Part shown: positions 1 to 20,988 of the stretch, piece after piece
How positions within the stretch are numbered: the first letter of the stretch is position 1
Layout of the letters: every line of letters begins with the position of its first letter
IMG/VR virus record: IMGVR_UViG_3300023179_000364
Location: 1-30,195 of that record
Source: a virus
Length of the DNA stretch: 30,195 nucleotides
Direction: 5' to 3' (one strand)
Made by a program: the position numbers and the translations under genes
The notes under the pieces: model-generated
What the model saw: the letters and a program-made list of their open reading frames with translations, nothing else
Told to the model about the DNA's origin: nothing
Databases searched by the model: none

Positions 1-234
1 GAGCATATGAAGCAATATCACTATGCGTGGGACAACGATAAGAAAGTTCTCAGTAAAAAGCCGGTACACGACAAACATTCGCATTTTGCCGATGCTGCAG
101 AAATAATTGGACAGGTATGGAAAATGCCGGTACAATCAGAAATTGAAAAAAAGCCGCGTTTTTTAGCAGATTTGACCGCAAAAGAGTTATTTTGGCCGCA
201 ATTTGAGAAAAAACCGCAAGAACCACGTTTTTAA
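1..234 (+). CDS. Terminase large subunit, C-terminal end (partial)
   Basis: The reading frame is open to the left edge (Glu-His precede the first Met at base 7), so this is the 3' end of a longer gene, not a 75-residue protein. The final ~77 residues carry a pattern typical of the end of terminase large subunits: a basic segment with a spaced Lys-Pro-x-His-Asp, then SHFADA, where the nuclease domain's last acidic residue normally lies (family pattern H-D-x-x-S-H-x-A-D-A). The terminase packages DNA through the portal, and the portal gene lies 0.55 kb downstream. The tail is Lys/Pro rich. The ATPase motifs lie outside the window, so the assignment rests on this signature and on the gene order. 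Confidence 0.75.
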   Translation, partial: EHMKQYHYAWDNDKKVLSKKPVHDKHSHFADAAEIIGQVWKMPVQSEIEKKPRFLADLTAKELFWPQFEKKPQEPRF

Positions 235-254
235 CCCCTTTAGTGGATAGAAAA

Positions 255-530
255 ATGACCGTCAGCAATAACTTTGGTATGTATAAGCAGATAAGCGCCT
301 CCGGTAACGTAAATCCGGCATCTGGCGTTCTGGTGGGTATTTTTGTATCCGCAGCAAGTGCTACCCCAACTATCACCATCTATGATAGCGCGACTACTAC
401 TACTACGGCGCCTATTGTAGCCGTATTCACGCCGGTAGCAGCTACTTATTACCCGATTCCTGCAACATATGCGAATGGGTTGTATGTAGTTATCAGCGGT
501 ACAGTCCAAGCTACGGTTATTTACGCATGA
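255..530 (+). CDS. Small head-associated structural protein (hypothetical)
   Basis: A 91-residue protein, Ser/Thr/Ala/Val rich, with alternating beta-type composition and no signal peptide. ATG 255 is preferred over the in-frame GTG at 243 because GGATAG lies just upstream of the ATG. It sits between terminase and portal. Composition (VGIFVSAASATPTITIYDSA, then a Thr run) resembles small capsid or head-fibre decoration proteins of podovirus-like phages. The stop overlaps the next ATG by four bases (ATGA), implying co-translation. Function is inferred only from location and composition. Confidence 0.65.
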   Translation: MTVSNNFGMYKQISASGNVNPASGVLVGIFVSAASATPTITIYDSATTTTTAPIVAVFTPVAATYYPIPATYANGLYVVISGTVQATVIYA

Positions 531-5850: not shown

Positions 5851-6405
5851 ATGACTTATACATTCGCTTCTAACACCATTGGTGCAATTGACGTAACCAC
5901 GACAACCACCATTGCTCCAGGTGTATCAAACCTGCCATCTACCGTACTTGAAGCCCAGCTTGGCGAAATTCGCACGGCTTGGGACCCAACTTACGGTTAT
6001 GGTGAGTTCATCTACCTGAAAATCCCAGCTTCCACTGCAATCACCGCAAATTTGGTTTATCAGTGGACTGCCGGTTATGCGGTTGCTGCACTGCCTGTTC
6101 TTGCTACTTCCAAGAACACAGGCCATCAGGTTGCAGTTGCTCCGGCGGCGGTGGCTTCGAGCACCTCAGTTCAGTATGGCTGGTTCCAGATTCAGGGTCA
6201 GACCCCTGTTCTGAAAACCGCTGTAACTGTGTCCCCTGATTCGGTTGTGTATGCCTCTGGCACCGCAGGCCGTATTAAGGTTCTCACTTCAGCAGGTGGT
6301 CAGATTACCGGTATGCGTACTGCTAACGCAGCAACGGTAACATCGACGACTTCGACTGTACTTTGCTATCTGAATCGCCCAGCAATGCAGGGTCAGATTA
6401 CCTAG
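5851..6405 (+). CDS. Probable head decoration / capsid-associated protein
   Basis: A 184-residue beta-rich protein with high Ala/Thr/Val content, beginning 12 bases after the capsid stop behind AAGGAGC. It has Tyr/Trp-containing strands (GEFIYLKIPASTAITANLVY) and an Ala/Thr C-terminus. It shares the capsid gene's codon style, suggesting a high-copy virion component. A hairpin terminator follows, so capsid and this gene appear to end a transcription unit. The decoration role is inferred from position and composition. Confidence 0.75.
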   Translation: MTYTFASNTIGAIDVTTTTTIAPGVSNLPSTVLEAQLGEIRTAWDPTYGYGEFIYLKIPASTAITANLVYQWTAGYAVAALPVLATSKNTGHQVAVAPAAVASSTSVQYGWFQIQGQTPVLKTAVTVSPDSVVYASGTAGRIKVLTSAGGQITGMRTANAATVTSTTSTVLCYLNRPAMQGQIT

Positions 6406-6416
6406 TACCAACTACG

Positions 6417-6449
6417 GGGGTGGGCTTAAAACGTCCACCCCTACTTTTA
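6417..6449 (+). terminator. Rho-independent terminator after the capsid genes
   Basis: GGGGTGGGC (6417-6425), loop TTAAAAC (6426-6432) and GTCCACCCC (6433-6441) form a 9-bp stem with one G-U pair, followed by TACTTTTA. The T tract is short, so termination may be partial and let some transcription reach the downstream enzyme gene. Confidence 0.6.
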
Positions 6450-6461
6450 TGGGGGCTAAAA

Positions 6462-8495
6462 GTGCTAAATTTTGTTTGCGTGAATGCGGGTGATTATTTG
6501 GGGAGAGGTGCGGAATATGTAAATATTCTGGCCGACATGGTGGGGAGAAACCTACCAGAAAAAACAGCCTATAAATTCATTTGTTTTACAGACACTCCTG
6601 ATGGCATAGATTCTGCCGTTGATATACGCCCATTACCAGCCGAAGGACTGAAGGGTTGGTGGAACAAGGTGGCTTTATTTAAGAAAGGCCTATTCCCAGA
6701 AAATGACCGGATTATCTATCTCGATTTAGATACTTGCATTGTAGGTGCTCTCGACGGGATTATAACGTATGATGGCGAGTTCGCCTTAACCCGTGACTTC
6801 TTTCGTCCAGATACCTTCCAAAGCGGAGTTATGATGTGGCGTTCAGGATTTGGTGCCCATCTGTGGGATAATTATGTTGCTGCCGGATGCCCAGATATTG
6901 ATGGCGGCGACCAAGTATGGATACGCAATAATTCCAAACCAGACTGCCTGCAGTCAATTTTCCCGCTGTCTTTTGTGAGCTACAAGGTTCATTGCCAGAG
7001 AATGTTCCCCAAATCTGCAAAGGCCGTTTGTTTCCACGGTCTCCCACGACCCCATGAATTCCCTTCCGAATGGGTTAAGTATGTTTGGAAGATAGGCGGC
7101 GGCACAGCTTTAGAGTTGCAATGCGTTGGCAATATGGCTGAGACTGACCTAATAGAAAATATCCAGAACGCTTGCAAATTGCCCTACGAGCGTGTGAAGA
7201 TAGAAACACCGCATGATGGCCATGCCGTTATAGTTGGCGGTGCTCCAAGCCTTCTTAAAGCAATGCCGGAAATAAAAATGAGGGCTGACCATGGTCAAAC
7301 AATCTTCGCCACCAACAACACCGTTTCTAGCTTACTACTAGATGGCATTGTGCCAGATTATCAGGTAATACTTGATGGCCGAAAAGAAAATGCAGCGTTT
7401 GTTGGTAATGTGCCGTGTATGTTGGCTTCACAGTGTCATCCTGCTGTATTTGAAGCTGCAAAGGAAAATCCAATAACTATTTGGCATTCATTTGCCGATG
7501 GACTTCAGGAAATTGTCAATGATGATAGCGCTTTTATTGGCGCTGGGTTATCATCAGTAGGATTAAAAGCTATAGCTCTTGCCTTTACTATGGGGTACCG
7601 TAAAATCCATATTTACGGTATGGATAGCTCATATACCGATGGCAAGCACCACGCTTACCCGCAATCACTTAATGATGGCGAACGTGTGATTGACGTTGAA
7701 TGTAACGGGAAAAAATATACTTGCGCACCATGGATGGCCGTACAAGTAGAAGAATTTAAGAGTCTGGCAGCACTTTTAGTCGCAGAAGGTGTTATTCTGA
7801 CTGTAAATGGTGAAGGTCTATTACCAGACGTTACGCGCCTTTTAGGCAAAGCCCCACCAGAATATGGAGAAATAGAACAGCGAGACGGGCTGTGGTGGCC
7901 AGCAAATGATTATATTTGCCATCAGGCTATGCAAACTGCGGATGAAGATATTAACCTTATCTTGCCGTTTTGTAAAGAGAAAAAAGTTGCAATACAGGCT
8001 GGCGGCAATGTTGGTGTGTGGCCAAAGCGTTTAGCAAAAGAATTTGAGGCGGTTTATACGTTTGAGCCGGACCCAGTAAATTATGAATGCTTAAAACGCA
8101 ATGTTCCAGAAGATAACGTGGTGATGTTTAACGGCGGGTTGGGGGATACGACCGGCTATGTCGGCATGAAACTTGGCACAAACAACTGCGGAGCGCACCG
8201 AATTGAAGGCGAAGGAGAGGTTTGCATATTCCGCATAGATGCCTTTTATCTCAAACAATGCGACCTTATACAGCTTGATATTGAAGGATATGAACTTCAG
8301 GCTCTTAAAGGGGCAATAGAAACCATCCAGAAATTCAAGCCAGTAATTGTTATTGAGGAGAATGGCTTATGTGAAAATTATGGGGTTAAATCGGGTGATA
8401 CAGAAAAATGGCTAATTGAGCAGGGCTACCAAGTCGCAGCCCGAAATAAACGCGACATAATTTTTATTTGTAATAACCAACCTAAAGGAGTATAA
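6462..8495 (+). CDS. Three-domain glycosyltransferase - DUF115-like - FkbM methyltransferase
   Basis: A 677-residue fusion. Residues 1-210: GT-A-like glycosyltransferase, opening VLNFVCVN.GDYLGRG.EYV, with metal-binding DxD (YLDLDT, D88/D90), FQSGVMMW at 119-126 and a His-Gly (FHGLPRPH) near 192. Residues ~250-460: DUF115 (MptE/Maf-like) domain with AVIVGGAPSL, FATNNTVSSLLLDGIVPDYQ and HIYGMDSSYTDGKHHAY. Residues ~505-670: FkbM-type SAM methyltransferase with QAGGNVGVW (motif I), FEPDP and LDIEGYELQALKG. GTG 6462 is chosen as start: GGGGG lies 6 bases upstream, and the longer frame from TTG 6363 would run back through the terminator into the previous gene. All three domain types act on sugars or glycoconjugates, so glycan assembly on a virion protein is the leading inference. 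Confidence 0.85.
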   Translation: MLNFVCVNAGDYLGRGAEYVNILADMVGRNLPEKTAYKFICFTDTPDGIDSAVDIRPLPAEGLKGWWNKVALFKKGLFPENDRIIYLDLDTCIVGALDGIITYDGEFALTRDFFRPDTFQSGVMMWRSGFGAHLWDNYVAAGCPDIDGGDQVWIRNNSKPDCLQSIFPLSFVSYKVHCQRMFPKSAKAVCFHGLPRPHEFPSEWVKYVWKIGGGTALELQCVGNMAETDLIENIQNACKLPYERVKIETPHDGHAVIVGGAPSLLKAMPEIKMRADHGQTIFATNNTVSSLLLDGIVPDYQVILDGRKENAAFVGNVPCMLASQCHPAVFEAAKENPITIWHSFADGLQEIVNDDSAFIGAGLSSVGLKAIALAFTMGYRKIHIYGMDSSYTDGKHHAYPQSLNDGERVIDVECNGKKYTCAPWMAVQVEEFKSLAALLVAEGVILTVNGEGLLPDVTRLLGKAPPEYGEIEQRDGLWWPANDYICHQAMQTADEDINLILPFCKEKKVAIQAGGNVGVWPKRLAKEFEAVYTFEPDPVNYECLKRNVPEDNVVMFNGGLGDTTGYVGMKLGTNNCGAHRIEGEGEVCIFRIDAFYLKQCDLIQLDIEGYELQALKGAIETIQKFKPVIVIEENGLCENYGVKSGDTEKWLIEQGYQVAARNKRDIIFICNNQPKGV

Positions 8496-18550: not shown

Positions 18551-18725
18551 TCACGCGTTTACAAATACCAAGGCTGACGGTAATGATGCCACAGTGACAC
18601 GCCCCTCGGATTGGAATGCTGGCCACGTTGTTATTGTAGATTTAGCCACTGAAGTTACTGGGATATTGCCAGCTGCGAACATGCAGTTTAACCCATATAC
18701 CACCACTTACGCAGGAGCAGTTTAA
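18540..18725 (+). CDS. Short tail-associated protein
   Basis: A 61-residue protein with HAFTNTKADGNDATVTRPSD and WNAGH, a motif common at the N-terminus of phage tail fibre or baseplate-attached proteins ('f...k.dg.d.t.v.PsdWN..H'). Here it exists as a stand-alone short protein, perhaps an adaptor module separated from a longer fibre. It overlaps both neighbours (11 bases upstream, one base downstream). Confidence 0.7.
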   Translation: MPVSHAFTNTKADGNDATVTRPSDWNAGHVVIVDLATEVTGILPAANMQFNPYTTTYAGAV

Positions 18726-19147
18726 TGGCCGTAACAGCTTCTCCGATATTCCCGCAGGCAATTAAGAATCACCAGACGCAGATTGCAACTGCAGACGCAA
18801 GCAATCTTAAAACCCTTATAACTGGCGGTACAAATGGTACAAAGATTGAGGCACTAGTTGCAACTAGCACGGATACATCTGCACGTGATTTACAATTTGT
18901 ATTAACTATAAGCGCTGTTGACTACATTTTAGATACCATTTCTTGCCCCGCTAATTCTGGTAATACTAACTCTATAGCGACCCTAAATATATTAAGTAAC
19001 GCAACGCGGTTTTTATGGGCACCTTATGACGCTGCAGGCAACCGCTATCTTTATATAGCATCGGGGACGGCTTTAAAGGTACGCTCTCTTACCACCTTGA
19101 CTTCGGCTAAGGTTATCTCAGTGATGGCAATGGGAGCCGACTTCTAA
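18725..19147 (+). CDS. Tail-region structural protein (hypothetical)
   Basis: A 140-residue beta-rich protein: QIATADASNLKTLITGGTNG, TKIEALVATSTDTSARDLQF, then LYIASGTALKVRSL. The pattern resembles a family of small phage virion proteins encoded beside tail fibres; the exact role is unknown to me. It is coupled at both ends by TAATG overlaps. Confidence 0.7.
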   Translation: MAVTASPIFPQAIKNHQTQIATADASNLKTLITGGTNGTKIEALVATSTDTSARDLQFVLTISAVDYILDTISCPANSGNTNSIATLNILSNATRFLWAPYDAAGNRYLYIASGTALKVRSLTTLTSAKVISVMAMGADF

Positions 19148-20307
19148 TGCCGATGGATGGGGGTATATCTCCTAAACTCCCTACGGTTTTGACGGGGAGG
19201 CAGCCTTTCCGCGACTCTGCTGCACAGACGGCTTTTCAGTCAAAGCTCGGTCTTGGCACGATGGCAACCCAGAATGCCAACAACGTAAGCATCAGCGGCG
19301 GCTCACTAAGCGGGATAAGCTCTGTAAATAGCGGCTACTACTACGGCTCTTATAGCTATATCAGTTATTTGTATCCTAGCGTCTGCCAAGGTAATTATTT
19401 ATACGCCACGACGCTGCTTGACGTACAGGCGGCTATGCAGCTTAAACCCGTACTGCATACTAGCAATGGGTATATCAGCGATAGCGAAACAGTAGTTCTT
19501 TGTGATGCAAGCAGTGCGGCTACTTGCACAGGCACACCCTCCACACCTTCCTGCTCATCTTATTCGACGCAGGGTGGATGCGAATCTAATACCAGCCACG
19601 GCTCCCAATGCTCATGGAACAGCGTCTATTGCCCTAGTTACAATGGCGACCAGACCACTTGCGAGTATTACCACTGCACTTGGGAAACCACTTCTTGCTC
19701 TCCATATAACTCTGACCAGATGACCTGCGAGAGTCATAGTGGTTGCACATGGAATACCAACTACGGGAATTGCTCTGACTTTAACGGAAGCGAAAGCACT
19801 TGCAACAGCACTTCTGGTTGCACTTGGAACTATAGCGACTGCCATGTGAATGATAACACAGACCAAGCAACCTGCGAAGCTAACTCTGGATGCTCTTGGG
19901 ATTCCATGGGGAATCTCTGCAACGGTCAATACAACACCTCTTGCTCTGGCTCGTATGTTAGCGGTTACACTTGCGACGGCACAACCCCTACAGGGAATTG
20001 TGTAAGTTCTGGCTCTGAAGGGTATTGCTCCGGCACTGTCACCTGCGGCTCTATAGTAGATAGCGGCATTTGTAGTGGAGAGTCCGGCTGCTCATGGGTA
20101 ACAGGCATTGCCTTGATTATGCCGCCCGGTAACGACGGTAGAACAGTTCGCATTCAAAAGGTGGATTCATCCGGTGGCGTTGTCACCCTTACCCCCTATT
20201 ACCCAAGCAACCCGCAGTATATCCGCGCTGCATCAAGCTACACCCTTACGTCACAGTGGCAGGACGTATGGTTGACTTACTACGCCTCAACACAGACATG
20301 GAGCTAA
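19147..20307 (+). CDS. Cysteine-rich tail fibre / receptor-binding protein
   Basis: A 386-residue protein. N-terminal ~115 residues: phage tail type, with FRDSAAQTAFQSKLGLGTMA, NNVSISGGSLSGI and LLDVQAAMQLKPVL. Residues 119-315 hold 25 of 26 cysteines in six repeats of the form C-x(8-10)-C-x(4-9)-C-[ST]-W (CSW or CTW at 155, 177, 200, 225, 249 and 315). The C-terminal part GIALIMPPG..GRTVRIQKVDSSGGVVTLTP continues the beta-domain pattern broken off at ETVVLCDASSA, so the Cys-rich module appears inserted in a loop of a standard fibre domain. It is likely a disulfide-stabilised receptor-binding tip. A thioredoxin-like gene begins two bases after its stop. Confidence 0.8.
   Translation: MPMDGGISPKLPTVLTGRQPFRDSAAQTAFQSKLGLGTMATQNANNVSISGGSLSGISSVNSGYYYGSYSYISYLYPSVCQGNYLYATTLLDVQAAMQLKPVLHTSNGYISDSETVVLCDASSAATCTGTPSTPSCSSYSTQGGCESNTSHGSQCSWNSVYCPSYNGDQTTCEYYHCTWETTSCSPYNSDQMTCESHSGCTWNTNYGNCSDFNGSESTCNSTSGCTWNYSDCHVNDNTDQATCEANSGCSWDSMGNLCNGQYNTSCSGSYVSGYTCDGTTPTGNCVSSGSEGYCSGTVTCGSIVDSGICSGESGCSWVTGIALIMPPGNDGRTVRIQKVDSSGGVVTLTPYYPSNPQYIRAASSYTLTSQWQDVWLTYYASTQTWS
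19501..20094 (+). repeat. Six-copy Cys-rich repeat module (coding)
   Basis: Encodes the 25-cysteine segment. Repeats centre on an S-G-C-[ST]-W core, with an Asp/Asn-Gln-x-T-C-E segment before it. Copies differ in spacing and in the residues between cysteines, pointing to old duplication and diversification. Confidence 0.75.
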
Positions 20308-20308
20308 A

Positions 20309-20848
20309 ATGCAGGATATTACTTTTGCACAGTTTGAAGCCGCAATCGCAACGGGGACTGTTATTATTGACGTATGGAAGGACGATTGTCCCTACTGCGT
20401 ACAATACGCTCCTATCTTTGAAGCTGCTGAGGCAGAGAACCCCGACATTACGTTCCTGAAGTTCAACCTCGCCATTAAGGACGTAACCCCGACGTGGATA
20501 TCCACCTACTTCGGTAACGGCAAGCTAGATGCTCCTGCTACGCTGCTGCTAGAAAACGGCAAGCTCATCAATCGCAAGTTTGGCTTTATGAATGCAGAGC
20601 AGCTTGCATCATTCCTACGCCTGCGCTCCCTGAATGCCCTGTATCTCGAAAAGGGCAAGCTCATCACAGCGATTAACGTAGCTCATCAGTCTATGCGAGC
20701 TATCGAAGCCAAAGACCAGACTAAGCTCACGGATGAGGATTATCTGGAAAGGGGTAGGGCAGCGACCGAGATGGAAGTTGCACAGGCCACTATCACGCAA
20801 AAACTCAACCCTCAAATCGAAAACCTCTTAGCTCTAGGAGTCGCATAA
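20309..20848 (+). CDS. Thioredoxin-like protein with CPYC active site and helical tail
   Basis: A 179-residue protein. Residues 1-105 are a thioredoxin fold: VIIDVWKDDCPYCVQYAPIF (C27-P-Y-C30), strand TFLKFNL, cis-Pro segment DAPATLLLENGK (P76), C-terminal helix. The CPYC dipeptide is that of glutaredoxins, which favours disulfide exchange over strong reduction compared with the CGPC of thioredoxin. Residues ~106-179 are an extra charged helical extension not found in standard thioredoxins. No signal peptide, so it acts in the cytoplasm. It directly follows the 26-cysteine tail protein, making that protein its probable client. Confidence 0.85.
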   Translation: MQDITFAQFEAAIATGTVIIDVWKDDCPYCVQYAPIFEAAEAENPDITFLKFNLAIKDVTPTWISTYFGNGKLDAPATLLLENGKLINRKFGFMNAEQLASFLRLRSLNALYLEKGKLITAINVAHQSMRAIEAKDQTKLTDEDYLERGRAATEMEVAQATITQKLNPQIENLLALGVA

Positions 20849-20988
20849 TGTCTTGCAATGAATGCGGATGGGATACCGCTGTAAAACCTAAATCGTGGTG
20901 GAAAACAGATTGCAAGTTGTGTTTAAGACTACGCTATAGTATTATAGCCATATGTTCTGGCATCTTACTATGGTGGGTCTATGGCTGA
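20848..20988 (+). CDS. Tiny double-CxxC membrane protein (46 aa)
   Basis: A 46-residue ORF starting MSCNECGWDT with C3-x2-C6 and C22-x2-C25, which could form a zinc ribbon or a redox pair, then a hydrophobic C-terminal helix (SIIAICSGILLWWVYG, residues 31-46). ATG overlaps the thioredoxin-like stop (TAATG) and it overlaps the next gene by eight bases, with GGAG upstream of the start. The tight coupling argues that it is real. Function unknown; it may be an accessory to the redox gene or a small holin-type lysis factor. Confidence 0.6.
   Translation: MSCNECGWDTAVKPKSWWKTDCKLCLRLRYSIIAICSGILLWWVYG

Follow-up and report, generated by a model that had tools for sequence, protein, structure and literature searches.

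Cysteine-rich fibre genes of tailed phages are coupled to a gene for a small thioredoxin-fold enzyme, and this coupling is real. A relative of the enzyme is encoded downstream of the fibre on the same strand, either directly or with one gene between, in 16 of the 17 informative viral records, a small sample of partial records in which eight enzyme-positive haplotypes belong to one group, while the same enzyme profile matches none of 80 records with similar cysteine-poor fibres (Fisher P 2e-17). The genetic association is well supported, and the mechanism offered for it is a proposal based on sequences and models. Fibre and enzyme quite probably form a substrate-enzyme pair, in which the enzyme acts as a dedicated cytoplasmic thiol-disulfide oxidoreductase (oxidase or isomerase). 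A sequence-only reading had proposed such a dedicated disulfide enzyme for the fibre; the gene coupling supports it in part, whereas disulfides in the fibre, the fibre as substrate, and the role of oxidase or isomerase are what we infer.

The window, the whole stretch of DNA analysed, is a 30,195-base virus record of the Mx8-like podovirus type. It carries Mx8-like markers, a portal (phrog_12082) and a major head protein (phrog_9953), and the closest cultured portals belong to Bradyrhizobium, Stenotrophomonas, and Myxococcus phages (31-37% identity). The genes discussed here lie on the plus strand. A small virion-type protein of 140 aa, an optional partner (18725..19147), shares its last base with the start of the fibre open reading frame (ORF) (19147..20307), which encodes 386 aa with exactly 26 Cys and has relatives in viral contigs. 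After a single base comes the 179-aa enzyme (20309..20848), whose stop overlaps by one base a 46-aa membrane-like ORF with two CxxC motifs (20848..20988). All three of these ORFs had been described from the letters alone and are confirmed. The 46-aa ORF is followed by DUF5675, a holin, and, past an HNH-like gene, a lysozyme. Elsewhere in the window (6363-8495), between head and tail genes, a 710-aa protein with 21 Cys combines a glycosyltransferase PHROG, an MptE-like domain, and an FkbM-type methyltransferase; a role in virion glycan modification is possible.

Cysteine accounts for 6.7% of the fibre residues but for 1.0% of those encoded by 19 other predicted genes in the window (binomial P about 7e-14). 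Twenty-four of the cysteines are confined to residues 127-315 (19525..20091), where they are spaced by 5-11 residues and follow the repeat C-x(8-10)-C-x(3-5)-C-[ST]-W-x(4-9)-C. This repeat corresponds to no Pfam family and to no solved structure in the PDB. A match of the fibre to PF20910 (TDP-43_C) is under the cut-off and compositional. The absence of CxxC from the window fibre counts against zinc binding. The cysteines presumably pair into disulfides, and their number is odd in some fibres (33).

The C-terminal 298 residues of the fibre are modeled with moderate confidence as a beta-sandwich resembling the T4 gp9/gp10-type, CBA120 TSP4, and Pa223 capsid spike domains (VIA Z 9.6-11.4). Aligned residues number 82-90 and are distributed across model positions 8..298 on either side of the cysteine-rich stretch, so that this stretch is predicted to be a loop insertion between a first part of the sandwich (roughly 19438-19524) and a second part (20092..20304) that is likewise similar to T4 gp9/gp10 and CBA120 TSP4. 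A second cysteine-rich insertion is found in a later loop in L083, L086, L096, and the L090/L101 group. The C-terminal tip thus has a fibre-type fold (Z up to 11.4), and matches in BFVD include tail fibre proteins. The cysteine-rich insertion is probably the host-contacting tip of the fibre. Collagen-like GPP/GPQ repeats precede the cysteine-rich tip in four relatives (L096:7433-10705, L098:3014-4570, L105:6620-9619, and L106:2628-6161), where they provide a modular fibre shaft.

The Cys repeat is also present in DPANN archaea, Patescibacteria, and Myxococcota, within cellular proteins. Those with a visible start carry an export or membrane-anchor sequence, as judged by reading, which fits the expectation for disulfide domains. 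In proteins from Woesearchaeota, Pacearchaeota, Aenigmatarchaeota, Nanoarchaeia, and Patescibacteria (L118, L122, L125, L126, L132, L134, and L137) the repeat reaches 40 or more copies, and among those scanned it lies outside every Pfam family.

Sequence profile and predicted structure place the enzyme in the thioredoxin family, with a CPYC site of glutaredoxin/DsbG type. It scores 24.9 bits against PF00085 (Pfam cut-off 23.5); among its relatives, L086 scores 35.2 and the others fall just under the cut-off at 20.2-22.8. The AlphaFold2 model, built from 13 relatives, shows a confident thioredoxin topology over residues 1-110 (pLDDT mostly 83-95 over residues 1-100) and a helical C-terminal tail at low confidence. 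Its strands and helices follow the thioredoxin order, with the CxxC opening helix 2 and the cis-Pro opposite, and structurally it matches bacterial thioredoxins best (C. crescentus Trx1, 6esx: Z 15.4 over 106 residues). The only two cysteines, C27 and C30 of the motif VWKDDCPYC (active site at 20387..20398), and Pro76 at the cis-Pro loop position of thioredoxins (20534..20536) are invariant across the 13 relatives from six lineages. Profiles A3 and A6 add to the evidence for the identity of the enzyme. The dipeptide between the two cysteines is PY, PK, PH, or SF, and GP in none. All relatives extend past the thioredoxin fold by about 50-70 aa, a region predicted to be helical in the window protein.

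The enzyme is set apart from TrxA/TrxC by CPYC in place of CGPC and by a TIGR01068 score of 35.5 bits against a cut-off of 96.8. The glutaredoxin-type motif noted in the sequence-only reading is present, but the protein is not a glutaredoxin: the motif alone is shared and no glutaredoxin family appears among the Pfam/NCBIfam matches. Nor does the protein belong with DsbA, DsbC, or DsbG: no Dsb family scores above cut-off and an export signal is lacking, its N-terminus, MQDITFAQFEAAIATGTVIIDVWKDDCPYC, reading as one without a signal peptide.

The evidence for coupling was gathered without reference to the enzyme, as 2.9 million viral contigs were scanned by the Cys repeat alone. Records counted as informative, the window included, contain DNA beyond the fibre gene; L099 and L108 end inside it and were left out. 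Pattern matches in L089, L092, L093, L100, and L110 contain no multi-repeat cysteine-rich ORF and were set aside as chance. Where fibre and enzyme genes are adjacent, they are separated by -4 to 12 bases (start codons chosen by reading), and one gene intervenes in L083 and L096. Counted by deep lineage, six of seven with a cysteine-rich fibre have the enzyme. The 80 cysteine-poor records were retrieved by the N-terminal half of the fibre. Pfam PF00085, used as an independent model, gives 12/13 against 1/22 (Fisher P 2e-7), where the lone match is to a thioredoxin at another place in a genome of 94 kb; per deep lineage, the comparison for any PF00085 is 6/7 against 1/22 (P 1e-4). No thioredoxin is present in eight cultured Mx8-like phages whose portals are related. 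The enzyme gene is thus tied to the gene of a putative cysteine-rich substrate across lineages, which supports the proposed functional class, a dedicated disulfide oxidoreductase of a virion fibre. The sequence-only reading had suggested searching for co-occurrence of the Cys repeat and the CPYC gene, which is what these records display, and had named frequent occurrence of the enzyme gene beside cysteine-poor fibres as a counter-case, of which the 80 records hold no instance.

Divergence of enzyme and fibre is uncorrelated across the six deep lineages (r 0.14), so sequence co-evolution is not demonstrated. Scans starting from the enzyme (A1 and A5) yielded no pair beyond those already identified and have little power for an enzyme without a cysteine-rich fibre. 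A single scan of genomes by the Cys repeat gave cellular repeat proteins and no prophage pair. Among 50,697 phage records there is no relative of the fibres from the window, L101, L094, or L096, nor of the L101 or L083 enzymes, and the window enzyme has seven weak matches, all of them thioredoxins by annotation or of standard appearance, two on contigs that look bacterial. Two phage-labelled entries, L146 and L147 (MT835663 and MT835528), have the look of bacterial fragments, encoding transketolase, HslUV, tRNA-synthetase, and further genes of housekeeping type.

The settings of the pair are podo-, sipho-, and myovirus-like. L083 has a contractile tail and a baseplate wedge protein. Of the siphovirus-type phages, L086 encodes an HK97-type head protein beside the pair and L098 a major tail protein and a tape-measure protein, while L096 is a podovirus that encodes an internal virion protein. 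Portal and head families are common to the window and the L090/L101 group, which differ in the location of the pair: it follows the tail genes in the former and lies between the portal and major head protein genes in the latter. Occurrence in unrelated contexts and at differing genome positions indicates that the pair moves or is kept together. With the pair lying among head genes in one group, the earlier label of a 'tail' gene is tentative, and the fibre may belong to the tail or to the head. Identity is 50% between the 140-aa gene that precedes the window fibre and the gene directly upstream of the L083 fibre, which points to a block of 140-aa gene, fibre, and enzyme common to a podovirus and a myovirus. 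The shared block excludes the 46-aa ORF, and no relative of the 140-aa gene was found upstream of the other fibres.

The exception among the 17 records is L094, an Mx8-like phage that has a cysteine-rich fibre and no enzyme gene. Its portal and head families resemble those of the window, and its fibre gene is placed as in the L090 group. The L094 fibre begins with MVLRLLTLLFISSVAIAQ, a Sec-type signal peptide by reading, whereas the enzyme-linked fibres whose starts were read, that of the window among them, have no signal peptide. Host periplasmic enzymes could therefore serve the L094 fibre, and this single case agrees with the prediction of the folding hypothesis. The gene after the L094 fibre also encodes a signal peptide, together with 6 Cys. 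Sec-type signal peptides are present on structural-type proteins of L094 (7429-9012, minus strand) and L083 (3642-5207, plus strand), with 38 and 18 Cys, respectively. These signal-peptide proteins suggest export, possibly with decoration of the particle at lysis.

The reducing cytoplasm is where tailed phages have their proteins synthesized, and these do not reach the Dsb system by export, which would be why the phage supplies its own catalyst. In the proposed mechanism, the gp9/gp10-like beta-sandwich of the fibre carries a large insertion of cystine-type repeats, and this cystine-rich tip, beyond the reach of DsbA, would be unable to mature unaided. The fibre would be the substrate of the small CPYC-type enzyme, which would act on the insertion through thiol-disulfide exchange, most likely introducing and shuffling the tip disulfides late in infection, as the oxidant supply rises or at lysis. 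The helical tail may hold the enzyme to the fibre. The reaction would be oxidation or isomerization. A search for Erv1/ALR-like sulfhydryl oxidases found none in 15 incomplete records, with no match in any control genome either. CPYC and CPHC are substitutions that have been introduced into E. coli thioredoxin to assist oxidative folding in the cytoplasm, a compartment in which oxidized thioredoxins can oxidize substrates (PMC3526497). On a broader scale, the balance tilts slightly towards tailed phages having evolved their own cytoplasmic oxidative folding, with about ten disulfides in the tip and a co-encoded oxidizing-type thioredoxin, the alternative route being signal-peptide export to Dsb as in L094.

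A cytoplasmic thioredoxin in the reduced state would, as a counterpoint, reduce disulfides rather than form them. The enzyme could accordingly be a thiol protector or reductase that keeps the fibre cysteines reduced and unscrambled until disulfides form spontaneously after lysis. A thioredoxin-fold protein without a signal peptide is normally reduced in the reducing cytoplasm, and such a role predicts the same genomic association; yet the dipeptides are of the oxidase/isomerase type rather than CGPC, and reduction is already supplied by the host thioredoxin, which leaves this role unlikely. Direct coupling with the fibre gene, and a C-terminal extension in every relative, would also suit a virion component or fibre assembly chaperone that uses its helical tail, with a redox site acting at the host surface, for instance on receptor disulfides. 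This seems improbable, since the association is specific to the cysteine-rich insertion and disappears with otherwise similar fibres. Standard-type phage thioredoxins do exist, and the enzyme might be an ordinary auxiliary thioredoxin (a ribonucleotide reductase donor or polymerase factor) that lies beside the fibre by chance. That reading is barely credible, as adjacency to the cysteine-rich fibre recurs in six lineages and at several genome positions, and ribonucleotide reductase is encoded in 0 of 15 records in a search that detected its positive controls. The link might also reflect a shared mobile module rather than an enzyme and its substrate.

The 46-aa ORF had been grouped with the fibre and enzyme into a three-gene redox cassette, in which the membrane peptide could be a redox partner, such as a membrane electron acceptor. 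It does overlap the enzyme gene and has 5 Cys, two CxxC motifs, and a hydrophobic C-terminus, and in L086 an 83-aa protein with 8 Cys follows the enzyme. Only the first two genes recur together, however: no relative of the 46-aa ORF accompanies another copy of the pair in any fetched locus or is found in the 50,697 phage records, and the gene after the enzyme in other lineages differs and is unrelated to it. A cassette of three is therefore very improbable, and the ORF is probably the start of the following block of small membrane proteins and lysis genes. The reading preferred here remains that of a cysteine-rich fibre and its dedicated oxidoreductase.

Virions of tailed phages, assembled in a reducing compartment, are thought to be largely devoid of disulfide-rich proteins for that reason. 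A dedicated catalyst encoded by the phage would, if true, explain how some phages escape from that limit and come to use cystine-rich binding domains. Such a catalyst would also have its natural counterpart in the CPYC/CPHC thioredoxins engineered for making disulfide proteins in the E. coli cytoplasm, and hence be a possible tool. In virus evolution, the fibre-enzyme pair allows the co-inheritance of enzyme and substrate to be tested cleanly. The sequence-only reading was aware of no phage tail protein with a co-encoded disulfide enzyme, and our search of the literature, which was not exhaustive, likewise turned up no earlier account of such a dedicated pair in phages.

Among the known systems close to the enzyme is the thioredoxin family (PF00085; TrxA/TrxC), with which it shares the fold, a CxxC whose first Cys has a Trp four positions ahead of it, and the cis-Pro loop. 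Unlike TrxA/TrxC, the phage enzymes have CPYC, CPKC, CPHC, or CSFC instead of CGPC and a C-terminal extension, and they are far under the equivalog cut-offs and genetically tied to one structural gene. DsbG has a CPYC active site. The dipeptides also recall Grx1 (CPYC) and DsbA (CPHC) (PMC3526497), but in contrast to Grx1, DsbG, and DsbA the phage domain is thioredoxin-type and has no signal peptide, and neither a DsbC/DsbG dimerization domain nor a DsbA helical insert is recognized. The fibre in turn resembles T4 gp9/gp10-type and tailspike beta-sandwiches in its C-terminal domain, from which it differs by one or two long cysteine-rich loop insertions.

The arrangement of a small thioredoxin-fold enzyme in the operon of its cysteine-containing substrate is reminiscent of TrbB in F-type conjugation and PedC/BrcD in bacteriocin operons. 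The enzyme matches TrbB/PedC-type isomerase profiles weakly, with scores far below the cut-off. TrbB and PedC/BrcD act outside the cytoplasm on exported substrates. The poxvirus E10R-A2.5L-G4L pathway includes a cytoplasmic thioredoxin/glutaredoxin-like protein that is needed for virion protein disulfides (PMC11980589). It is similar in being virus-encoded and cytoplasmic, and it differs in belonging to a eukaryotic virus with its own sulfhydryl oxidase; no homology is claimed. Co-encoded isomerases for exported substrates (TrbB, PedC) and a cytoplasmic pathway in poxviruses are thus known, and what would be new, by the literature searched here, is a phage fibre with its own enzyme.
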